A DNA stretch of 64,000 nt from Granulosicoccus antarcticus IMCC3135 (GTDB taxonomy: Bacteria > Pseudomonadota > Gammaproteobacteria > Granulosicoccales > Granulosicoccaceae): assembly GCF_002215215.1 (NCBI RefSeq), contig NZ_CP018632.1:3778501-3842500 (forward strand), given 5' to 3'. The notes beneath the pieces were generated by a model. That model had not been told where the DNA came from. It was given only the letters and a program-made list of their open reading frames with translations, and did no database searches. Positions 1,684 through 56,222 of this stretch are shown here, one piece after another. Made by a program: the position numbers and the translations under genes. The stretch's first letter is position 1. Every line of letters begins with the position of its first letter.

Positions 1684-1904
1684 GCGTTGAATCTGTAAGT
1701 TTCCAGTAAGCCGCCACGCATCACCAAGTCTTTTGACGAGGCGTGTCAGTAGTCATGTCGGTTATGTGACCAGCTGAATATCGGTAAAGTTCCCGATTAT
1801 TTGATCATACGCTTTTTTCCAATAGATCAAGTCAGCGAAGACTGAATATGCAGTATTCACAAAAAGGATAGTGTCACCGAACCTGTCAACGCCCCCGATA
1901 GAGA

Positions 1905-2000
1905 TCTACGCCAACGCCTGTCCCAGCCGAGCACGGGTCAGTGGTTTGCTCAGATATAGTCGTCGAAGCCGGCCGCCTTTAATCGCTTACGTGAAATTAA
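1905..2000 (-). pseudogene. remnant of a response-regulator receiver C-terminus
   Basis: Reading the minus strand gives KAAGFDDYI and, one frame over, SKPLTRARLGQALA followed by a stop. Together these resemble the end of a CheY-like receiver domain (the ...GxDDYxxKPL... region, where the Lys is conserved). A frameshift separates the two parts and no upstream receiver is present. The 1684-2057 gap holds only this and an AT-richer stretch at 1770-1865 that may carry promoter elements for the Cys-rich gene. Confidence 0.35.
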
Positions 2001-2057
2001 CCGTGAGTCAGGTGCGTAGAGTCCCCGCCCATGGGCAGGGACGCTGGTATCACCGTT

Positions 2058-2684
2058 CTAATCAGCTCGCTTCAGTTCTTGGTAGTCGCCACGCACTGAG
2101 AGTGTGATTGACACCTCCTGGCTGTCACGGTTTCGCCAGAACCAGCCATGGTTTCCCGCAAATTCCGCTTTCAACGTGCCCTGGTCACCGGGAGCCCCAC
2201 GACCTTTTTCGTAGCTGATGTTCTGGCCGTCGCCATCCCCATGCAGGTCGTAGTTGACCACTCCGCCTTCGGCAGCCCAGAGAAAATCGACCTGGGCACC
2301 TTCGTCCATGGCGAGCTTGTACTCAGTGCTCTCACCCGGGGCTAGCGTAAAAGACACTTCCTCGTCCCATGAGTCTGCAGCCTCTTGTGCATGGGCCGTG
2401 CTCACGAACAAGCCCAGAAGGCCTTCGATAAGCCTGGACTGCCCCTTGTCTGCCTGTGACGTCTTGCGGTCCATCTCAGCCTCTTCGGCAAGCTGTGACT
2501 TGATCTCACCCATCTGGGTGAGACCAAGCACGCTACCAGATCCTGTCGGATCAATGCCGTATTCCGCAGGGAGAACGACAGTCACGAGAATTACCCCCGC
2601 GGCCGCGGCCGCAATCGCTGTGGATTTCAGCAGTCGGGCCGAGCTGGGTAGATCATCTATATCAGGTTTTTGTGTGTTGTACAT
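2058..2684 (-). CDS. transmembrane anchor protein next to HupE
   Basis: A 208-aa protein with a single membrane helix at about residues 22-42, then a linker containing a second weakly hydrophobic stretch ending in AHAQ, and a C-terminal beta-rich domain (FTLAPGESTEYKLAMDEGAQVDFLW...) rich in acidic residues. Proteins of this type are annotated as transmembrane anchor proteins and are commonly found beside HupE/UreJ permeases. It starts 18 bp after the hupE stop on the same strand, so the two are probably co-transcribed. Function unknown; probably a periplasmic partner of the permease. Confidence 0.75.
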   Translation of the reverse strand: MYNTQKPDIDDLPSSARLLKSTAIAAAAAGVILVTVVLPAEYGIDPTGSGSVLGLTQMGEIKSQLAEEAEMDRKTSQADKGQSRLIEGLLGLFVSTAHAQEAADSWDEEVSFTLAPGESTEYKLAMDEGAQVDFLWAAEGGVVNYDLHGDGDGQNISYEKGRGAPGDQGTLKAEFAGNHGWFWRNRDSQEVSITLSVRGDYQELKRAD

Positions 2685-2702
2685 TGCAAAAGTCTCTTGG
2701 GT

Positions 2703-3434
2703 TCAGGTAACAACAAAGAAGTAACCGGTGAGCTGGTAGCCCACCAGAATGAAGCCTGCTGACATCATCACGACATTCGCCGTGTAGGCGTGTTTCCAGA
2801 AGCCAGCCGTGCGCCGCCAGTAGCCCATGCCGATCAGAATCACCGACAGCGCCAGCAGTTGGCCAATCTCAACACCCACATTGAAAGCGAGCAGGTTGGG
2901 AAGTAGTCCGTCCTGAGCGATCTCATAATCAATGATCTTGGTCGCCAGACCCAGCCCGTGGAACAAGCCGAAAATCAGCGTAGCCGCTTTGGTGTTGGGC
3001 TGAACCCCAAACCAGCGCTGATAGGCACCCAGGTTGTCGAGCGCCTTGTAGACAACCGATAACCCGATGATCGCATCGATCAGGTAGGCGTTCACACTCC
3101 AGCCGAAGTACACCCCGGCCAGCATGGTCGTCGAGTGACCGATTGCGAACAGGGTGACGTAGAGCGCGACATGCTGCAGTCTGTAGAGGAAGAACACGAC
3201 ACCAAACAGGAACAGGATGTGATCGTATCCGGTAATCATGTGTTTTGCGCCAAGGTAGGAGAAGGGGATGAGGTGCACCCCCCATATCTCCATGATGTAG
3301 CCCTTGTCGCCTTCGGTGACTGCATGGGCCAGGACCGGGCTGACATTCACGGCGAACGCCAGACCGATCAAAAGAGAGAGAAACAGCGGCGTTCCAATCG
3401 AACGCACTATCCCGCCGGGATGAACAAATTTCAT
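2703..3434 (-). CDS. HupE/UreJ family permease
   Basis: Integral membrane protein of the HupE/UreJ_2 type, a family tied to nickel/cobalt uptake. From ATG at 3434 it has a signal-like helix ending SPVLAHA, then about six helices. The family signature HMITGYDHILFLFGVV carries the conserved GxDHxLF motif, and a second His pair lies in GLFHGLG. A longer frame from TTG 3506 exists but would include a terminator hairpin, so ATG 3434 is preferred. It is divergent from the nreA-like repressor and shares its operator region, which suggests nickel- or cobalt-responsive expression. The metal is inferred from family and context. Confidence 0.85.
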   Translation of the reverse strand: MKFVHPGGIVRSIGTPLFLSLLIGLAFAVNVSPVLAHAVTEGDKGYIMEIWGVHLIPFSYLGAKHMITGYDHILFLFGVVFFLYRLQHVALYVTLFAIGHSTTMLAGVYFGWSVNAYLIDAIIGLSVVYKALDNLGAYQRWFGVQPNTKAATLIFGLFHGLGLATKIIDYEIAQDGLLPNLLAFNVGVEIGQLLALSVILIGMGYWRRTAGFWKHAYTANVVMMSAGFILVGYQLTGYFFVVT

Positions 3435-3473
3435 TCGCGAATATTCCGTAGGTAATTGAGGAGGTAAAAACCG

Positions 3474-3496
3474 AAAAAAGCTGCCCGAAAGGCAGC
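3474..3496 (-). terminator. terminator-like hairpin in the hupE leader (possible attenuator)
   Basis: On the minus strand GCTGCC-TTTCG-GGCAGC is followed at once by six T residues: a 6-bp GC-rich stem and U-run. It lies about 40 bases before the hupE ATG and downstream of the operator, so it would sit in the 5' leader. This is the layout of a transcription attenuator. I did not recognise a known riboswitch in the about 160-nt leader. Confidence 0.55.
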
Positions 3497-3659
3497 AGTT
3501 CCTCAAACCCGCGGTGGGCTCTCGACGTCAAAGATCGGAGCGCAGTAGACCGGTGGCCCGGCATCTGCAAGATCGATGCAAGCGAGCTATTTTGAGTAAT
3601 TCAAAGATGGGGGCTACCCTGTTTGCTGGCTGTTTGCATCATCAATTCCGTTGCTTGAT

Positions 3660-3680
3660 TTATCCCCCCTGGGGGGATAA
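3660..3680. promoter_or_regulatory. CsoR/RcnR-type operator
   Basis: A perfect 21-bp palindrome with core TATCCCCCCTGGGGGGATA sits 9 bp before the repressor start and within the divergent hupE/nreA spacer. A G/C tract flanked by AT is the known operator shape for RcnR/CsoR/FrmR-family repressors, so the adjacent gene product probably binds here and represses both directions. Confidence 0.75.
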
Positions 3681-3689
3681 GCTAAGAGT

Positions 3690-3956
3690 ATGACAGATAA
3701 GCACACTCATGCAACACACCCGAAGGTCATTTCACGTCTCAAACGTGCGAATGGGCATTTGCGCAGCGTCATCGACATGATCGAGCAGGGTAAGCCTTGC
3801 CTTGAGATTGCCCAGCAGTTGCATGCCGTGGAAAAGGCGGTGATCAACGCAAAACGTGTACTCATTCATGATCATATCGATCATTGCCTCGATGATGACG
3901 CTGAGGGGCACAGTGCCGATATGGCTGAGTTCCGGGAGATTGCCCGTTACCTCTAA
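3690..3956 (+). CDS. nreA: metal-sensing repressor, RcnR/NreA type
   Basis: An 88-aa all-helical repressor of the CsoR/RcnR/FrmR family (DUF156). It contains the hallmark HPKxxxRLKRANGHLxxVxxMIEQG and AQQLHAVEKAV. Candidate metal ligands are the His-rich N-terminus (H5, H7, H10), C37, H60/H62 and H65/C66; the combination resembles Ni/Co sensors more than Cu sensors. It is followed by an MFS exporter with a His-rich tail, the nreA-nreB arrangement. On metal binding it should release the G/C-tract operator upstream. The symbol is by arrangement and similarity; a formaldehyde sensor is less likely given the partner genes. Confidence 0.75.
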   Translation: MTDKHTHATHPKVISRLKRANGHLRSVIDMIEQGKPCLEIAQQLHAVEKAVINAKRVLIHDHIDHCLDDDAEGHSADMAEFREIARYL

Positions 3957-5283
3957 GACATCCCTGTGGGGCGTTCTGGCTGATCGTACCTACCGCCATC
4001 TGTTTCTGGCTCAGGTGGTCGCACTGCTGGGTACAGGGCTTGCCACCGTTGCTTTGGGTCTCCTGGCGTACGATCTGGCTGGTGGGCAAGCCGGACTCGT
4101 TCTGGGTGCAATCTTTACGATCAAGATGGTGGCGTATGTTGTTGTAGCTCCCATTGCCGCAGCCTTTATCGATCGTCTTCCACGGCGTACAGTGCTGGTT
4201 TGCCTGGATATCGTTCGTGCGGTGGTTGCATTCATGCTCCCCTTTGTCACCCAGATCTGGCAGATCTATGTATTGATTTTTGTGCTGCAGTCGGCCTCGG
4301 CAGCCTTCACGCCGGCGTTCCAGGCCACCATTCCGGATGTCTTGCCTGATGAGGAGCGTTACACACGAGCCTTGTCGCTCTCGCGCCTGGCCTATGATCT
4401 TGAAAACATCGTCAGTCCGATTCTGGCCGCTTTGCTACTGATGGTCGTGTCGTCCAATGTGTTGTTTTTCGGGACTCTGGGTGGCTTTGCGGCTTCTGCG
4501 GCTCTGGTCCTTTCGGTGGTATTGCCTAGCCCGCAGCCCTCTGCAAAACGCGGGATTTACGAGCGAACCACGCGCGGAATCCGCATCTATTTAAAGACGC
4601 CACGCCTCAGAGGACTCCTGGCATTGAACCTTGCCGCCGCGGCAGCCGGTGCCATGGTTATTGTGAATACTGTCGTGCTGATACGCGCAAATCTTGGGCT
4701 TGGGGAGAGCGAAGTTGCCATCACACTGGGGCTCTTCGGTGCCGGCTCGATGCTGGCCGCCTTTGCCTTGCCAACACTGCTTGATCGGTTTTCTGACCGT
4801 TCGCTCATGCTGTTGGGTGCAATGCTCATGACAACCACCTTGATCGCTTTCGCACTCGGCATACGTATCCTGGAACTGAGCTGGGCAGGCGTGCTGCTTG
4901 CCTGGTTGATGACAGGTATCGGTTACTCAGCCGTTTTGACCCCCTCAGGTCGGCTGCTGCGCCGATCGGCCCATGCCCAGAACCGACCTGCGCTATTCGC
5001 TGCACAGTTTGCCCTGTCACATGCCTGCTGGCTGGTCACCTATCCGCTGGCAGGCTGGGTAATGACACAAGCCGGGCTTGTGCCTGCACTGTTGGTTTTG
5101 GGTGGGCTTTCGGTAGTGGGAATAGTGGTCGCACTTTTCATCTGGCCAAAGAGCGATTCGGATATTGTGGAACACCGGCATGACAGCCTTCCGGAGGATC
5201 ATCCCCATGTGAAGGATGGACGAACACATGCGCATCCTTTTGTCATTGACGACGAGCACATCCGCTGGTCGAGGCATCTGTAA
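3940..5283 (+). CDS. nreB: MFS exporter, NreB-like
   Basis: About 447-aa major facilitator superfamily transporter with 12 predicted helices beginning DRTYRHLFLAQVVALLGTG. The C-terminal tail is His-rich (HRH, HPHVKDGRTHAHP, DEHIRWSRH), as in NreB nickel exporters. The frame is open back to 3856 inside the repressor gene. The start used here is TTG 3940, overlapping the repressor stop, which would give translational coupling; the true start is uncertain and a non-ATG start seems necessary. It most likely pumps Ni2+ (or Co2+) out. Substrate is inferred from the tail and from pairing with the repressor. Confidence 0.7.
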   Translation: MPVTSKTSLWGVLADRTYRHLFLAQVVALLGTGLATVALGLLAYDLAGGQAGLVLGAIFTIKMVAYVVVAPIAAAFIDRLPRRTVLVCLDIVRAVVAFMLPFVTQIWQIYVLIFVLQSASAAFTPAFQATIPDVLPDEERYTRALSLSRLAYDLENIVSPILAALLLMVVSSNVLFFGTLGGFAASAALVLSVVLPSPQPSAKRGIYERTTRGIRIYLKTPRLRGLLALNLAAAAAGAMVIVNTVVLIRANLGLGESEVAITLGLFGAGSMLAAFALPTLLDRFSDRSLMLLGAMLMTTTLIAFALGIRILELSWAGVLLAWLMTGIGYSAVLTPSGRLLRRSAHAQNRPALFAAQFALSHACWLVTYPLAGWVMTQAGLVPALLVLGGLSVVGIVVALFIWPKSDSDIVEHRHDSLPEDHPHVKDGRTHAHPFVIDDEHIRWSRHL

Positions 5284-5455
5284 CCGGGGACTGACTCCCT
5301 TCCTCTAAGGATACGTCTACATTCCCGGGTATTAGCGTGGGTGCCTGTTTTGTATTACGAGGCCCGCCAAAAGACACGCAAAAGCCCCTTAGGCATCATT
5401 GCGCCGCATTTGGTTCCCACTGCCGATCCAGCATGACGCCGCAGACGGGTGTGCT

Positions 5456-33335: not shown

Positions 33336-34150
33336 CTACGTGAGCTGAAGTACGCATCCCAGCTTTGGTGCGACCGTGCGACCGTCCGGTCACCGCATCG
33401 AAATCACTGGCATTGTCGTAGGCACCAAGACGTATTCCGTCGTAGATCCCTGCGATGATCTCGCCGAAAAACGGGCCAAGTTCGGCCGTGCGATCCTCGG
33501 TATACTCGGCCGCGGTCATGGTGCGGTAGGTAAGCTGTGTTCCGAATGCGCTGTTCATATAATTAACCAACTGCGCTTGCGTGATCGGAGTACCGTTGAT
33601 ATTGACGATCTGGTTGTCGTGATCCGAATTCAACAGAAGCTGTGCGTAGGCGTGGGCAAGCTCCGCTCGGGTCGTGTAACCGCATTTCCCGTCGCCAGCG
33701 CTATTCGCAATTTCTCCACGTGATCGGTAGCTGTCGATATAGTCCACGTCCGGTTCAATATAAATACCATTACGGCCGATGACCCATGTCAGCCCGCTGG
33801 CTCGAATGTCGGCCTCGGTTTGGCGACTGCTCTGTACCACGGGCGAAAAGCGGGTTCCCTGTTCCGGTCCCTGAATGCCGGTGTAGACAATTTTGCCTAC
33901 ACCGGCGATTTGGGCAGCCTCGATCACGTTACGGTGCTGCTGAATGCGTTCCTCCGGCGGGTCAATGCCTGACACCAATAGCAATGTGTCTATACCCGTC
34001 AGCGATGCCTGGAGTTGCATTGGTTCGGAGTAATCTCCGGGACGTATTTTCATGTCAAGACCCTGAGCCTTCTGCGGGGTCCGTGCAAGACCGACGACCG
34101 GTGTGCCGCCCGGCGTATCCAGAAGTGCTTGCGCTATCTCGAGCTCTTCT
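33289..34150 (-). pseudogene. NmrA/QOR2-like NAD(P)-binding protein, 5' truncated
   Basis: The frame matches an NmrA-type atypical short-chain dehydrogenase (GGTPVVGLARTPQKAQGLDMKIRPGDYSEP, then GIDTLLLVSG and NVIEAAQIAGVGKIVYTG). The first strand with the GxTGxxG cofactor loop is missing; upstream residues are antisense to the next gene. The C-terminus is also unusual. It is cut at about 34140-34160, the same point where the opposite gene loses its 5' end. Confidence 0.7.
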
Positions 34151-35340
34151 GGGATCGTGTCGAGGGACAAGCCTACCAGTACGATGTTGAGATCAATGGC
34201 GAGGCAGTCGGCAGCACCGATGGCACCAGCTTCTTCATAGGTGACGAGACGACCTATCGCGATGGATCGGGCCAGTTGCAGATCATGCTGGTTGCGCGCA
34301 ATGCAGCGGGTGCGAGTTCGGCACAAAGTGCGTTGGCGCTGACGGCGGGCGATGGTGTACCGGATGATGGTGGGGACAATCCGCCCGAGCCAATTGATGA
34401 TGCCTTGTTATCGCTCGAACGTGCTGGCAGTCTTCTTCAGGAGCTCACTAGCCTGATGCGCAGTAATGGACTGACCGAGCATCAGGGTACCTTGCGCTCC
34501 CTTAACAGAATCGACGCAGACAACTACACCTCGGAAGAGGTGCTTGCAAGCAGTAGTGAGTCCTCTTACTCATCAGATACGCTGTACCGACGCAACTGTG
34601 TCAACGGCGGCAACGTTGAGCATCGTGTTGAGTTCAGTTATCACGGCTTTTACAGACACGGCTTCGATGCGTTTGATTGTATGTTTCCGGGTTACCGACT
34701 TGTTTCAGGGTTTGGTACCTACACAAATCAATACGATGGTTTCGACTATGCCGGTAATACCTGGACCGGTTATCGCGGGGCGTTCGATGCACTGGTTGTC
34801 GAACAGGGCGATGCCCGCGAGACGATGACGGCATCCTCTATCCAGGACAACACGTCGCGAGGTCAGATCAATTCGAGCGAGCGCTATCGCATACGTCGCT
34901 ATTTGCGCATCGAAAACGGGGAATACGATTACGAGAAGGGCGATGTCGAAGTGGCGGTGCGTAACTGGAATCATCGCTTCAACCGGTTCGACCCAAACAC
35001 GGGGCAGCATGCCTTCAATCGCCTGAACTCCACTTTCACAGTGAGCGCGAGCTGGACTGATAGACAGACGCTCGACATCGACGCGGTGTTTGATGGTCGG
35101 GGCGAAGCAGCACCTTGGTTCGACAACGGTCGCCTGCGCATTGTCAGCGATACGGGCGACTCGCTCGAAGTATTAGCCGGCACGGGCGATCCGGAGACCT
35201 ATCAGCTGGTTTCCACCGTGAATGGCGTGACGATATCGGAGATACGTCGCTGGGATGTCAATGGCTGTGAGCTCGTCAACACTTTTTGGCAGCAGAGCCT
35301 TGACCGGGAACAGTGTGTGCTGATGCCACCGCTTGGGTGA
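34145..35340 (+). pseudogene. secreted beta-rich protein fragment, 5' truncated
   Basis: From about 34145 the frame reads ELFWDRVEGQAYQYDVEINGEAV, the middle of a fibronectin-III-like domain, then an acidic linker (GDGVPDDGGDNPPEPIDD) and a long beta-rich domain of unknown family to the stop at 35340. The open frame extends to 34015, but that part is antisense to the NmrA-like gene and is not protein-like. A signal peptide and the first domain are missing, so this is probably a broken gene. The cysteines are few and late. Confidence 0.55.
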
Positions 35341-35368: not shown

Positions 35369-35560
35369 GTTGCTGAACCTTCAGGTATTTGACATCCTCC
35401 TCTCCCCTTGAAGGAAGAGGATTCCTACGGCGTTCAGGCTATTGCCCAAATCGCTTCAGCGGGTTCCTGTTTCACTGGGGCCGCCTGAATGACATGCTCT
35501 CGTAATTCAGGTCTGACATCCCCTCCACAGGCCAACACGGCGTGTCCCGCCGCTTCTATA
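35369..35560 (-). ncRNA. probable omega (guide) RNA at the tnpB 3' end
   Basis: TnpB proteins use an RNA transcribed from the right end of their element, overlapping the end of tnpB, with the guide read from flanking DNA. Here the scaffold would end at the TCAA at 35389-35392 and the present guide would be ATACCTGAAGGTTCAGCAAC (35388 to 35369). The 5' limit is a guess. Confidence 0.45.
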
Positions 35561-36672
35561 TTTTTTGCTGCATTGGTATCAGCGTTGTCCGAATACCCAC
35601 AGCTCTGGCAGCAGAAACCTGCCTGGCTCTGTCGGTTTTCCTTCGCTATGTGCCCACAGCAAGAGCATTGCTGACTCGTGTACTGAGCCGGGACGACAAT
35701 CAGCTCTCCTCCTGCCCAACCAAGCTTGTAGCCTAACTGACGTCGGAATTCGCCCCACCCCTGGTCCAGAATGGCACGGTTGAGACCGGACTTGGCCTTC
35801 ACGTTCTTGCCCGGCAATGCCTGACTACCCGACGCCGAACGAGACATATTGGCCACTTTCAGATCTTCGATACACACGACTGCGTGGTTATTGCTGATGG
35901 TGTGTGTCTTCTTGTGCAAATAGTCGGCTCGGGCATTGGCAATACGTCGGTATAGTCGGGCAACCCTGTCTTTCTGCTTTCTCCAGTTGTTGGAAAATTT
36001 CTTTTTACGCGCCAGTGAGCGTTGCTCCCGGGCAAGCTTTCTTTGATACGTTGCAAAGCTGTTGAGCGGCAGATGATTCTCTCCGTCACTCTGTGCAGCG
36101 AATACCTTGATGCCCATATCAATACCCACCAAACTCGTGGAGGGGTGTTGTGACGCTTCCACCTCGCGTACTGTCTGCACAGAAAAAAACCACTTGCCAC
36201 AACGCTCACTGATCGTGATATTGCGTAACGTACCCAGCACCTTTCGACTGTTGCGGTAGCGAATCCAGCCTAGTTTGGGCAGAAACACACGATTGTTGGC
36301 TTGATCCAGTTTGAATTGTTTGGGTTCAGGGTATCGAAAACTGTCGCCGTCGCCTTTTTTCTTGAACCGGGGAAATCCTGCCCGCCCGGCAAAGAAATTC
36401 TGAAACGCACGATCAAGATCCCGCAGTGACTGCTGTAACGGGTGGGCCGACGCATTCTTGAGCCAGCAGCTGCCTTCTTCCTTTCGCCACTTCGGCAGGC
36501 GATTGGCCATGGGCACATAGCCTATATACTTCAATCCGGCCTTGTGGTTCTCCTGCTGCAAACCCAGTGCCCTGTTATAGACAAATCGGCAACTACCGGC
36601 AAACTGTCGCAACTTACCCAGTTGTTCGCCGTTGGTACGTAGTTCGAATTTGTAGGCTTGAAGGCGTTCCAT
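35434..36672 (-). CDS. tnpB: TnpB RNA-guided nuclease (IS605 OrfB)
   Basis: A 412-aa TnpB of typical length. RuvC residues are intact: D185 in GIDMGIK, E269 in CIEDLKV and D365 in DNADTNAAKNI. The zinc finger has CSCC at 336-339 and CCQSC at 354-358. The N-terminal OrfB helix-turn-helix region (RFVYNRALGLQQ) is present. No disruption was seen, so it may be active. It promotes retention of the element by RNA-guided cleavage of empty sites; such activity is established for homologs only. Confidence 0.92.
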   Translation of the reverse strand: MERLQAYKFELRTNGEQLGKLRQFAGSCRFVYNRALGLQQENHKAGLKYIGYVPMANRLPKWRKEEGSCWLKNASAHPLQQSLRDLDRAFQNFFAGRAGFPRFKKKGDGDSFRYPEPKQFKLDQANNRVFLPKLGWIRYRNSRKVLGTLRNITISERCGKWFFSVQTVREVEASQHPSTSLVGIDMGIKVFAAQSDGENHLPLNSFATYQRKLAREQRSLARKKKFSNNWRKQKDRVARLYRRIANARADYLHKKTHTISNNHAVVCIEDLKVANMSRSASGSQALPGKNVKAKSGLNRAILDQGWGEFRRQLGYKLGWAGGELIVVPAQYTSQQCSCCGHIAKENRQSQAGFCCQSCGYSDNADTNAAKNIEAAGHAVLACGGDVRPELREHVIQAAPVKQEPAEAIWAIA

Positions 36673-36694
36673 GCATTTATTATACTATTGGCCT

Positions 36695-37111
36695 ATGAGC
36701 AAAGATACGACTATTCGCACAGGAAGACACTGTGTATTTATTATGCATGTCCACTTGGTCTTCGTCACAAAGTATCGTCGTGATGTCTTCACCAAGAAAA
36801 TTCTCGATGACTTGAAGATCACCTTCACCAAGGTATGTGAAGACTTTGAAGCCACTCTGGTGGAGTTTAATGGTGAAGACGATCATGTCCATCTTCTGGT
36901 TAACTACCCACCCAAGGTGCCAGTATCTGGCCTGGTCAACAGTCTGAAGGGGGTATCTAGTCGCCGAGTAAGAAAAGCAGATTATCCGAGCATCAAAAAC
37001 AAACTGTGGGGTAATGCACTATGGTCTCCTTCGTACTTTGCCAGCAGTTGTGGTGGAGCTCCGATTGGCCTGATCAGACAATACATCGAACAGCAACGAA
37101 CACCGCGCTAA
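36695..37111 (+). CDS. tnpA: TnpA Y1 transposase (IS200 family)
   Basis: A 138-aa HUH transposase from ATG 36695. The HUH motif is DHVHLLV (H64, H66) and the nucleophile is Y130 in LIRQYIEQQ; HLVFVTKYRRDVF is the family N-terminal signature. All catalytic residues are present. It cuts and joins single-stranded element ends. Divergent from tnpB. Confidence 0.92.
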   Translation: MSKDTTIRTGRHCVFIMHVHLVFVTKYRRDVFTKKILDDLKITFTKVCEDFEATLVEFNGEDDHVHLLVNYPPKVPVSGLVNSLKGVSSRRVRKADYPSIKNKLWGNALWSPSYFASSCGGAPIGLIRQYIEQQRTPR

Positions 37112-37341
37112 CACAACAGAGAGGCTTCGCCTCTCGCGCTATCCATCCCCGCCCTGAAGGACGAGGTTTTTCGCGCAGATGGATAAAGAGGAAAAGAGGA
37201 GATGACACGGGTGGACCTTGATGATACCTGTCTGATATATTGCAGCTTAGACAGGTGAACGTCTTTGGTTTGAGATAAGCCCAACTGACTGGCGCGGTGG
37301 TTCGCTGATCATATCTATCATTGAATTTGTAGGACGCGACC

Positions 37342-37500
37342 ATGGCACGAAGTTTTGGTCGCCTTGTTATCAAGGCGCTAAAGGAAGTCGATAAGGCTGC
37401 ACGCCAAGCTGTTATTGATGCAGGTAAGAAGGCACTCGAACGACGGGTGCAGGCTCGCGACAAGTTGTGTAAACGGTATATCGATTCAGTGGTTGAATAG
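37342..37500 (+). CDS. 52-aa basic protein upstream of the GIY-YIG gene
   Basis: A short frame from ATG 37342 to TAG 37498-37500 encodes a strongly basic, probably helical protein (starts MARSFGRLVIKALKEVDKAA, 15 Lys/Arg in 52 residues). AGGA lies about 8 bases upstream. It ends one base before the ATG of the next gene, so the two are probably translated together. No family recognised. It may be a partner of the nuclease-like protein. Confidence 0.6.
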   Translation: MARSFGRLVIKALKEVDKAARQAVIDAGKKALERRVQARDKLCKRYIDSVVE

Positions 37501-37501
37501 T

Positions 37502-39118
37502 ATGGAACAGCTACTGAATGAATCGTCCCGGTGGGCGTTGATAGATGGGTATCTTCAATTGCCCATTACCGATCTTTTGGCCACGGTTGCTGGTCTGATC
37601 ACCTTTTTACTTGTTTGCTATTTCGTTACTCGATACAGGATTCGCCGGTTTCGTCATCGCTATAACCGAGTGTACCGGTCGCTGGAAGAGCTCAATAGCG
37701 AGTTTGTGGAACAGCAATTTCAGCTCGTAGAGTGGCAGGATGAGACGGCACGCCAGAGGCACCGGGCAAAGAATGATCTGCAGCAATTGACCGCAGAGGT
37801 CAGTACGGTATCGCAGAGAGCTGCCGAGATGCGACCTGTCTACGAAGCGCTGCAACGGCGGCAGGCTGACCTACAGGACAACGTTGTACAGTTGGAGGCT
37901 CGGCATTCAGATATCGTGAGTGTTCTGGATAATACCGGACCACTGCACGAACACTTTGCGAACCTGAATTGGAAAGTAGTTGAGAAATCAGATGAGCTGG
38001 TGCGTGTAGAGCGGCAGTTGCAGAATCTAAGGTTAGAGCTTGATCTGTACGATCGCCAGAATAACCTGGTTGCTTACGCGCATTACGCAGAACCGGAATA
38101 CCTGCATCAGAGTAGTGATCGCTTCAAGATAGAGGTCAAGCGCGAGCGAGATTTTCAAAAAGCGCTTATCAGCGAGAAGAAAGAACTGACGGGATTGGAT
38201 GCATTGAAGGATGCATCCGAACGCACGCAGGCGTCTCGGCACGGAAAATTGTTGATAAGAGCATTCAACCTAGAGTGTGACAAGTTGTTTGCTACCGTAC
38301 GGCATTCAAACTATGCAAAAACTGTTGAACGCGTCGGCAAGCTGGCTCATGATCTTGAGAAGTTGATGAATGATCAGCGCTTCGGAGTATCACTGGAATA
38401 CGTGGAATCCAAGCTGCGTGAGTGCACGCTCATTTATCAGGACAAGTACAAGGCTAAGGAAGAGGCTGATGAGCAGCGACAGCAACGAGAGCAGTTGAGA
38501 GAGGAGCGTAAGGCTCAGCGTGAATACAAAGCCGCCCTGAAAAAAGCACAGGATGAAGAGAAGGCCTATCAGCAGATGCTGGAGAAAGCGCGAAGGGAAA
38601 TCTCGGAGGCCACGGGCGGGCAGACTCTGGAGCAACAGGAAAGATTCCGGTATCTGGAGGAAATGCTGGAAGGCGCACGTCAGAATGAACAGCGCGCCAT
38701 GAGTATGGCGCAGCAGACACGTTGCGGATTCATTTACGTAATCAGCAATGAAGGTTCATTCGGCAAGGGTATTTACAAGATCGGTCTGACACGCAGACTG
38801 GAACCGATGGACCGTGTAAAGGAGTTGGGGGATGCGAGTGTGCCATTCTCATTCGACGTGCACGGCATCATTTACTCGGAAGACGCGCCCAAGCTGGAGA
38901 ATGAGCTGCACCGGCATTTTGATGGTAAGCGCGTGAATGTAGTCAATAACCGAAAGGAGTTCTTCCGAGTTGAGTTGAATCAGATTGAAGTGGCTATCAA
39001 TGAACTGATGGGTGAGCCTGTTGCTTTGAAGCGCGAAGGATTTGAGGATGATGATTATTCGGAGGCAATGCGGCTGCGCAATAGTGTGATTGAAGGGGTG
39101 GTTGAGACAGTGGTTTGA
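37502..39118 (+). CDS. membrane-anchored DUF4041/GIY-YIG protein
   Basis: A 538-aa protein from ATG 37502. One membrane helix at about residues 22-44, then a long charged coiled coil (about 50-190), a DUF4041-like helical region (about 195-320), a second Lys/Glu/Gln-rich coiled coil (about 330-420) and a C-terminal GIY-YIG-type T5orf172/MUG113 domain (GFIYVISN...GIYKIGLTRR...ELHRHFDGKRVNVVNNRKEFFRV). Proteins of this architecture occur in phages and bacterial genomes; a nuclease or anti-phage role is possible but not shown. It lies beside an IS605 element and follows a 52-aa basic gene. Confidence 0.8.
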   Translation: MEQLLNESSRWALIDGYLQLPITDLLATVAGLITFLLVCYFVTRYRIRRFRHRYNRVYRSLEELNSEFVEQQFQLVEWQDETARQRHRAKNDLQQLTAEVSTVSQRAAEMRPVYEALQRRQADLQDNVVQLEARHSDIVSVLDNTGPLHEHFANLNWKVVEKSDELVRVERQLQNLRLELDLYDRQNNLVAYAHYAEPEYLHQSSDRFKIEVKRERDFQKALISEKKELTGLDALKDASERTQASRHGKLLIRAFNLECDKLFATVRHSNYAKTVERVGKLAHDLEKLMNDQRFGVSLEYVESKLRECTLIYQDKYKAKEEADEQRQQREQLREERKAQREYKAALKKAQDEEKAYQQMLEKARREISEATGGQTLEQQERFRYLEEMLEGARQNEQRAMSMAQQTRCGFIYVISNEGSFGKGIYKIGLTRRLEPMDRVKELGDASVPFSFDVHGIIYSEDAPKLENELHRHFDGKRVNVVNNRKEFFRVELNQIEVAINELMGEPVALKREGFEDDDYSEAMRLRNSVIEGVVETVV

Positions 39119-54967: not shown

Positions 54968-55969
54968 ATGGTCGACACACCGCTCATCACCCGCGACTCG
55001 GTGGCCAGCGCCCGGCAGGCGCTACTCGCGCAGGGGCGCAAAGCGTCCCAGCGCGCCGTGATCAAGCATCTGGGCGGCGGCAGCTTTTCACAGGTGGGGC
55101 CGCTGCTGCGTGAACTGGAGAGCGACGCCGGGGAGGTGCCGGGCAGTGCGCTGACCGAGCCGCTCGCAGCAAGCGTGACCGAGGCGATCGAGACACTGTG
55201 GCGTGCCTTGGGCCTCGAAGCCGATAGGGTGGTCAACGACGCCCGGCAACAGTTCGAGCGGGATCTCAAAGCAGAGCAGGCGGCAAGGGCCCAGGCAGAG
55301 GCGGCGACGGTGCGCACGCAGGAGCATCTGCAGGCGGCACAAACCACACTGATCGGTTTGGAAAAAGCCCTGGCCAGTGAGCAGAGCGCTCGCGAGCAAA
55401 CCACCGCGGCTCTGGAGCAGGAACGCCTGGCGCATGCCCGAACGGACACCCAGCGAGAGGCAGCCCAGGCATTGGCCGCTGAACGTCAGCAGTTACGCGA
55501 TGAAGCACTGGCCGAGCGTGACGGATTGCGGGTCGAACTGGACAGCGTCCGTCGTCAAACCGATGAATTGACCCAGGCACTGCGTCGGGAGATCGGTGAG
55601 CAACGCTCAGCCCATGAAAAACGAGTGGATGCACTCAATGAAGCCGCGACTGCAGCGCGAACGAGCCTGGCTGAACAGCGCAGTCAGCTGGATGCCCTAC
55701 AGCGGGAGAACACCAATCTGACCACCCTCAACAGCGGCCTGTCAGTACGGATCGACAACACACAGTCGTCGCTGGCAAGTACCGAAGCTCAGTTGTCGGT
55801 ACTCAACGCGCAGCGCACGGCCGAACAACGGGAAAGGGAGACGCTTCAGAGCATGATGACGTCGCGACTCGCCGACAAGGACGAGCTGATTGCCAGCCTC
55901 CAACAACAGATTGCCGAACCACCCAACGATCCGGATGCACCCGTTGAGAACGATACCGGTGGCGTCTGA
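54968..55969 (+). CDS. kfrA: KfrA-like DNA-binding coiled-coil protein
   Basis: A 333-aa protein: an N-terminal KfrA_N-type DNA-binding domain (about 1-110, with RKASQRAVIKHLGGGSFSQVGPLLREL) and a very long Ala/Glu/Gln/Arg-rich alpha-helical coiled coil (about 85-320). KfrA proteins are plasmid-associated autoregulators and nucleoid-like partition helpers. GAGG precedes the ATG. The 3' end is repeated in diverged form at 58981-59324. Confidence 0.8.
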   Translation: MVDTPLITRDSVASARQALLAQGRKASQRAVIKHLGGGSFSQVGPLLRELESDAGEVPGSALTEPLAASVTEAIETLWRALGLEADRVVNDARQQFERDLKAEQAARAQAEAATVRTQEHLQAAQTTLIGLEKALASEQSAREQTTAALEQERLAHARTDTQREAAQALAAERQQLRDEALAERDGLRVELDSVRRQTDELTQALRREIGEQRSAHEKRVDALNEAATAARTSLAEQRSQLDALQRENTNLTTLNSGLSVRIDNTQSSLASTEAQLSVLNAQRTAEQRERETLQSMMTSRLADKDELIASLQQQIAEPPNDPDAPVENDTGGV

Positions 55970-56222
55970 TTGGCGGGTTCGCAGGTTGGGTGGTGTCGCT
56001 TTTTCGTAATTGAAAAGTTGCCGAGAGCGGTCACCCCGAGTTATCCACAGTTTGTCGGGATAACTCTGTGTATAAGGGTGGAAAGTGGTTGAGCGCACAC
56101 ACGTTTTTGGATTGGTTAAAAATTAGACATTGCAGGGCGAAGAAGCTGGCCGCCCTGAGGGTTCCGAGCAGTCCGAGTATGTGGACAATCAACGGTTGTT
56201 CGACGATCATGCCGCTGAGGCG
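55624..56222 (+). repeat. about 600-bp duplicated segment, copy 1
   Basis: The kfrA 3' part plus the following spacer matches 58981-59583 in the same orientation, from TGGATGC(A/G)CTCAATGAAG to CATGCCGCTGAGGCG, with many substitutions. The spacer holds the DnaA-box-like sites. Confidence 0.8.
56041..56075. other. inverted DnaA-box pair in the kfrA downstream spacer
   Basis: TTATCCACA at 56041-56049 is the consensus DnaA box, and TGTGTATAA at 56067-56075 is an inverted near-consensus box. GTTATCC/GGATAAC arms lie between. The duplicate has TTATCCACA at 59396-59404 and a degraded second box. Next to kfrA this suggests an origin-like or former plasmid origin site. Confidence 0.55.

Follow-up and report, generated by a model that had tools for sequence, protein, structure and literature searches.

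A SNIPE (PD-Lambda-1) homolog of Granulosicoccus antarcticus lies behind a small basic gene linked to one branch of the SNIPE family

Two genes adjoin on the plus strand of the Granulosicoccus antarcticus IMCC3135 chromosome in a stretch of 64,000 nucleotides that was analyzed as a whole and is called the window here; positions are those of the window unless another locus is named. The first gene (37342..37500, ATG to TAG) encodes a protein of 52 amino acids (aa), and the second (37502..39118) encodes a protein of 538 aa. A single T at position 37501 separates the TAG of the first gene from the ATG of the second, in agreement with an earlier note on this DNA, which had placed the end of the 52-aa open reading frame (ORF) one base before the large gene. 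The same note had assigned to the large protein a membrane helix, coiled coils, a DUF4041-like region, and a GIY-YIG domain of the T5orf172 type, and our analyses recover all of these, the coiled coils by way of a structural model.

The 538-aa protein matches the PADLOC PD-Lambda-1 model PDLC03976 over residues 83-528 (E = 2.7e-125). Pfam places a DUF4041 core (PF13250) at residues 249-304 (38246..38413; E = 9.3e-13, 48.3 bits versus a cutoff of 27) and a T5orf172 GIY-YIG nuclease domain at residues 409-501 (38726..39004; E = 5.3e-17), the latter overlapping a match to MUG113 at residues 425-501 (E = 2.3e-18), with both nuclease matches above their cutoffs. Residue E466 (codon at 38897..38899) aligns with the catalytic E414 of Escherichia coli SNIPE and with the Glu at position 414 of a 500-aa homolog from phage PhiR26_1 that is annotated as PD-lambda-1 (L016); its column is one of 55 that are invariant across 27 SNIPEs. 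The single hydrophobic segment of the protein, residues 25-43 (37574..37630), is a predicted transmembrane helix (mean Kyte-Doolittle value of 2.32 over 19 residues) and is followed by RYRIRRFRHR, as expected of an N-out, C-in anchor. An AlphaFold2 model of modest confidence (mean pLDDT of 73.5) combines long helices at residues 22-142 and 148-190 and a further helix at residues 298-369, which are consistent with coiled-coil regions, with DUF4041 and a small alpha/beta nuclease domain. A structure search with this model returned nothing at an E value of 0.001 or below, only weak matches to the GIY-YIG domain of Slx1 amid long-helix noise, and a sequence search of the PDB returned no relative.

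Of the features by which SNIPE is recognized, the large gene has the family profile over most of its length, DUF4041, and GIY-YIG with the catalytic Glu, and an inner-membrane anchor near the N terminus with the rest of the protein in the cytoplasm is predicted. The membrane helix is typical but not strictly defining, because about one-third of the homologs covered in the main text of PMC13190303 have no predicted one. Profile, domain, and alignment evidence thus identifies the large gene as a SNIPE (PD-Lambda-1) homolog. Since the family is anti-phage in E. coli, the guess of a membrane-tethered anti-phage system acting on nucleic acid is supported by homology. This SNIPE is the only one in the genome (7.78 Mb, single contig). 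Orthologs in two other Granulosicoccus genomes share 81-83% identity with it, loci of this type are carried by 3 of the 27 genomes of the genus, and the nearest named relatives with such a locus are uncultured Granulosicoccus.

An IS200/IS605 element (35434-37111) stands beside the gene pair, as had been noticed before, with tnpB at 35434-36672 on the minus strand and tnpA, which encodes a Y1 transposase, at 36671-37111. Relative to L002, the corresponding locus of a Granulosicoccus relative, the element is inserted between 35343 and 37193, where it has a gene remnant on one side and the SNIPE pair on the other; it is likely a recent arrival, because it is absent from the same place in L002. 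The ORF upstream of the element (34015-35340) has no Pfam match and is a 5'-truncated copy of a protein that L002 carries as two tandem copies of 545 and 536 aa with a signal-like N terminus (L002 positions 1870-5316). The region directly upstream of the pair (37193..37341, plus strand) is kept between the window and L002 (blastn identity of 82% over 206 bp from 37193 and of 80% over 168 bp) and probably holds the promoter of both genes. It includes an inverted repeat, ACCTGTCT...AGACAGGT (37226-37256), about 85 bp before the small gene and largely kept in L002, which is a possible operator or promoter element. On the other side, blastn homology between the window and its relatives stops at the SNIPE gene. 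The idea of a defense island did not hold up: PADLOC found none among 10 neighboring proteins, the only resemblances being those of an ABC-transporter ATPase to mad3/mad8 and of a LuxR-type helix-turn-helix protein to a CARF model. Farther away, the stretch 55001-56000 has a G+C content of 0.637 and an AT skew of 0.26, both above the surroundings.

The product of the small gene is basic, as the earlier note had stated, with a computed pI of 10.2 and 14 Lys plus Arg versus 7 Asp plus Glu residues. Its position is occupied in two Granulosicoccus genomes (L002 and L003) by a gene for a basic protein of 131 aa. The window DNA aligns to both ends of this longer gene, with 237 bp (79 codons) missing between them and the frame kept. 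In L002, the missing stretch is flanked by two 8-bp copies of GACAAGGC that lie 237 bp apart; the window retains a single merged copy, GATAAGGC, at the junction GATAAGGCT (37390..37398). Two repeats in L002 and one merged copy in the window make this a typical repeat-mediated event. What is left encodes a cationic amphipathic helix at about residues 1-18 (37342..37395), whose hydrophobic moment of 0.76 was equaled by 7 of 2,000 shuffles of the first 26 residues, and a conserved C-terminal part with an invariant K...R-x3-R (37396..37497). Comparison with L002 identifies the window copy as a natural mini-form that has kept both conserved ends and lost the rod.

The 52-aa ORF is no chance frame: with a profile that left out its own clade, it was the only significant match (E = 1.1e-6) among the 73 ORFs that reach 30 aa in a 6-kb stretch, and the 52 codons shared with a relative differ by 18.5 synonymous versus 5.5 nonsynonymous changes. 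Profile and codon evidence together mark it as a real gene, and the existence of homologs rules out an orphan. Pairwise dN/dS values relative to L002 are 0.06 for the partner, as we call the small gene here, and 0.07 for SNIPE, ratios that mostly average the time before the deletion.

Ordinary members of the partner family are basic proteins of 93-132 aa (pI of 10.1-11.7 in the 16 computed) that are annotated as "hypothetical protein" in named records. Beyond the first Met, an alignment of 15 sequences has three invariant residues, a Lys and the two Arg of an Arg-x3-Arg motif near the C terminus. A cationic amphipathic helix makes up the first 26 residues in each of the 15 forms that have this part, including that of the window, with a moment of 0.58-0.86 that 0-92 of 2,000 shuffles reached; the same analysis found no amphipathic pattern in the C-terminal 26 residues. 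The 131-aa partner is predicted to be a single helix spanning residues 2-130 (pLDDT of 92). Across 15 sequences of the same length, the pN/pS values of codons 1-30, 31-75, and 76-104 are 0.078, 0.201, and 0.120, respectively. These values indicate that the partner gene is under purifying selection, with both ends held more tightly than the middle, and the two tightly held ends are exactly the parts that the window copy has retained. A second short form occurs at L010, where a 42-aa partner consists of the C-terminal part without the amphipathic N terminus and begins at a GTG that overlaps the stop codon of the repressor-like gene before it; both the 52-aa and the 42-aa forms adjoin intact nucleases. 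Neither Pfam nor NCBIfam has a model that the family matches near the curated cutoff, PADLOC gave no match, and the family profile found in the PDB only Huntingtin and a 36-residue peptide, which we took for helix noise. At several loci (L013, L014, L027, L028, L270-L272, and L282-L289), the partner reads LARRGSG and has an apparent TTG start, which may be a conserved means of limiting expression.

The partner family became visible only through its SNIPE neighbors. SNIPE loci were gathered from collections of genomes, viruses, plasmids, and phages, and at each locus the ORFs preceding SNIPE were inspected; from 185 plasmid and 38 phage records, nine plasmid loci (H1, H2, H3, H4, H5, H9, H12, H13, and H14) and one phage locus (H45) were taken. 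Before counting, we dropped SNIPEs shorter than 400 aa (L033, L161, and L280), loci with identical last 300 residues (the proteins of L032 and L010 are identical), and near copies with 85% or more of their 6-mers in common, which removed L028 from the partner rows of the first tree and reduced the second from 123 to 98 rows. In the first tree, of 64 rows, the partner-bearing branch comprises 14 rows (bootstrap of 98, SH-aLRT of 99), and the trait needs a single change in 97% of the bootstrap trees. A small basic ORF lies directly upstream of SNIPE in all 14 rows of this branch versus none of the 50 others. The distance from partner end to SNIPE start ranges within the branch from a 4-nt overlap to a 10-nt gap; in L002, the genes overlap by 8 nt if SNIPE is read from an upstream TTG and are otherwise 1 nt apart. 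When 15 loci were searched with profiles that left out close relatives, the partner was the sole significant ORF every time, at E values from 1e-6 to 1e-22. The 3,276 ORFs of 70 partner-free loci gave no upstream match, which rules out a partner in all SNIPEs. The check set in advance by the earlier note, conservation of the small ORF upstream of homologs, therefore did not refute its reading: the ORF is conserved in one SNIPE clade, although it is absent from the other SNIPEs sampled. The best match in those 70 loci (E = 9.8e-5) is a helical linker inside the SNIPE of L066 and reflects coiled-coil resemblance. Searched alone, this linker helix between DUF4041 and the nuclease domain (residues 301-375) resembles the partner rod with an E value of 9.8e-8 at biased composition, perhaps through convergence of charged helices or mimicry.

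The sample was enlarged by a phylum search (398 genomes) and by a search of the genus of one match (227 genomes, 49 with a SNIPE-like match), which yielded 39 further loci, 13 with a partner by profile and 26 without. In the resulting 98-row tree, the branch has 26 rows, 25 of them with a partner by profile, versus none of the 72 rows outside. The remaining row, L291, is preceded at a distance of 1 nt by a basic ORF of 126 aa, which the partner profile missed and whose last residues, SRNIERLKLIREIFK, resemble the partner C-terminal end by eye; a fusion of the partner into the 576-aa SNIPE of L291 was looked for and not supported. For the 49 matching genomes of the enlargement genus, 30 loci were fetched: 12 with a partner by profile, the divergent L291, and 17 SNIPEs of other types without one. 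A blind search with the partner profile in 212 genomes of this genus matched 11 genomes, all directly beside a SNIPE, and found no orphan partner; G895, which carries the partner of L284, was not among these 11. A class-wide search of 369 genomes for the partner returned the window genome, G203, and three other matches, which lie in open frames of 455-1,099 codons and were taken as coiled-coil noise. A tblastn search of plasmids with the 131-aa partner and a search of phage records with the Pseudoalteromonas form found nothing. Partner and SNIPE distances across 11 lineages are correlated (r = 0.70, a value reached by 2 of 5,000 permutations), and both genes therefore travel together. What can most safely be claimed is that SNIPE is a two-gene system in one of its branches.

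Other branches have upstream genes of other kinds. On two Hymenobacter plasmids (L263, positions 1462-1905, and L268, positions 1117-1602), SNIPE is preceded within 11-17 nt by a gene for a TerB-family protein or for a NINE membrane protein, a hint that partners may differ among SNIPE branches. A large SNIPE branch lies on prophage-like IMG/VR contigs (L055, L057-L059, and L083-L102), where most loci have a repressor-like helix-turn-helix gene about 20 nt upstream of SNIPE, suggesting control by a prophage switch region.

SNIPE is described in the main text of Saxton et al. (Nature 2026; PMC13190303) as an inner-membrane nuclease that cleaves λ DNA during injection and contacts ManYZ and the tape-measure protein. 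The anti-phage function of the E. coli protein was shown by experiment, and E414A abolishes defense; without its membrane helix, SNIPE is toxic, and at the membrane it is seemingly autoinhibited. How membrane SNIPE spares the host chromosome and how the injection complex is recognized are questions that the authors state to be open. We found no partner mentioned there; the main text lacks the words "upstream" and "small ORF" and uses "operon" three times, at least once for manXYZ; the accessible texts of PMC9519451, PMC12904381, and PMC12322248 likewise do not mention one. In the openly accessible main texts of journal papers that were searched, we found no description of a SNIPE partner, and to that extent the small basic helical partner of one SNIPE branch is undescribed.

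We propose that the pair is a two-gene SNIPE variant with a translationally coupled accessory protein that helps to load or position substrate for the nuclease, a reading that we consider somewhat more probable than its negation. The nuclease would be anchored in the inner membrane by its N-terminal helix, would expose DUF4041 and the GIY-YIG domain to the cytoplasm, and, by homology, would cut phage DNA during injection. The upstream gene would supply a conserved accessory of one SNIPE clade, probably through translational coupling. Its cationic amphipathic N terminus may lie on the inner membrane, while the basic helical rod and the C-terminal K...R-x3-R may contact SNIPE, DNA on its way into the cell, or the tape-measure complex of the phage and thereby help to load or position the substrate. 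A protein that is membrane lying, positive, and helical and is made just before a membrane nuclease would most simply hold phage DNA or the injection complex. Sequence comparison shows the SNIPE homology with its catalytic residue, the clade-wide linkage, purifying selection, the amphipathic N terminus, and the in-frame deletion; we infer that the partner binds the membrane, touches SNIPE, is translationally coupled to it, and acts positively in defense.

Several observations bound this proposal. The partner is dispensable for SNIPE action in general, because E. coli SNIPE and most other SNIPEs are without it, and the N-terminal membrane step is not universal, because L010 has no amphipathic N terminus and the L291 ORF escapes the profile. 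Partner length correlates with the length of the SNIPE N-terminal region among 11 pairs (r = 0.77), but the correlation vanishes once the natural short forms are counted (r = 0.14, n = 13), which is evidence against a strict side-by-side coiled coil. We consider it about as likely as not that a stricter version holds, a two-subunit SNIPE in which a membrane-bound basic helical partner is obligatory, captures DNA or the tape-measure protein or sets autoinhibition, and has a rod that can be shortened to a C-terminal core of ~40-50 residues with the pairing kept.

In many toxin-antitoxin operons, the small gene stands before the toxin gene. The window has this order, small gene first and nuclease second with 1 nt between them, and a type II toxin-antitoxin pair would be consistent in gene order and closeness only. 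The partner could accordingly be an antidote-like regulator, bound to SNIPE and silencing it until displaced by phage injection. The tight linkage of the two genes and the main text of PMC13190303, in which helix-less SNIPE is toxic and membrane SNIPE appears autoinhibited, favor such a role. However, E. coli SNIPE is tolerated although it has no partner (same source), the partner is strongly basic rather than acidic, and forms of 52 and 42 aa stand beside intact nucleases, so that we regard an antidote as doubtful.

We also think it unlikely that the family is real while the window copy is decaying, with its partner cut down, an IS605 in front, and degraded DNA behind. Repeat-mediated deletion did remove 79 codons, and L002 has no IS605 where one lies just upstream here. 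Nevertheless, the deletion leaves the frame and the two conserved ends intact; the 1-nt spacing and the upstream region (~80% identity to L002) have persisted; SNIPE is full length with its catalytic residue; and the dN/dS values given above are low in both genes, although they refer mostly to pre-deletion time. Quite improbable is a translational leader, in which the small ORF would only set the level of SNIPE and its protein would have no role. Stop and start codons do fall within a few bases of each other at all partner loci, and the window SNIPE start has, by eye, merely a weak Shine-Dalgarno-like sequence. Such a leader would not need amino acid conservation at both ends (pN/pS of 0.08-0.20), invariant residues across 15 diverse sequences, or codivergence with SNIPE, and these therefore argue against it. 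Least credible is a purpose other than phage defense, such as DNA uptake or tethering of the chromosome by a pair that acts on nucleic acid at the membrane, given the close match to the PD-Lambda-1 model, the relatives on prophages and plasmids, the occurrence of two clade members on plasmids in the vicinity of integrase or recombinase genes plus RT, SLATT, NERD, FRG, or HigB genes, and the patchy distribution within the genus.

A partner gene conserved across a clade offers a direct genetic handle on the self-restraint of SNIPE and on recognition of the injection complex, and the two natural minimal partners of 52 and 42 aa mark its likely core. Scanners and cloning strategies that treat PD-Lambda-1 as one gene may take half a system in the partner branch, which could give false negatives in defense assays.

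Zorya and Kiwa, which PMC13190303 also brings up, are membrane-located, multiprotein defenses that act at genome entry; their proteins are unrelated to those of the two-gene SNIPE, and we claim no homology. PD-Lambda-1 was reportedly first selected by Vassallo et al. in 2022. As first selected, it is described as one protein in the accessible text of PMC9519451. A homolog with tested protection against dairy phages is PD-Lambda-1 of Streptococcus thermophilus, for which the accessible text of PMC12322248 mentions no partner and which we liken by description, not by sequence. The window SNIPE resembles that of E. coli in having a predicted membrane helix near the N terminus, DUF4041, a GIY-YIG domain whose Glu aligns with the catalytic one, and a family-level profile match, and differs from it in a longer N-terminal helical region. 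E. coli-type loci (L016 and L034) have no partner gene, whereas the window SNIPE belongs to a separate branch with an upstream basic gene; the one-gene subtype, defined by the lack of a conserved upstream partner, thus accommodates neither the window locus nor its branch as a whole.
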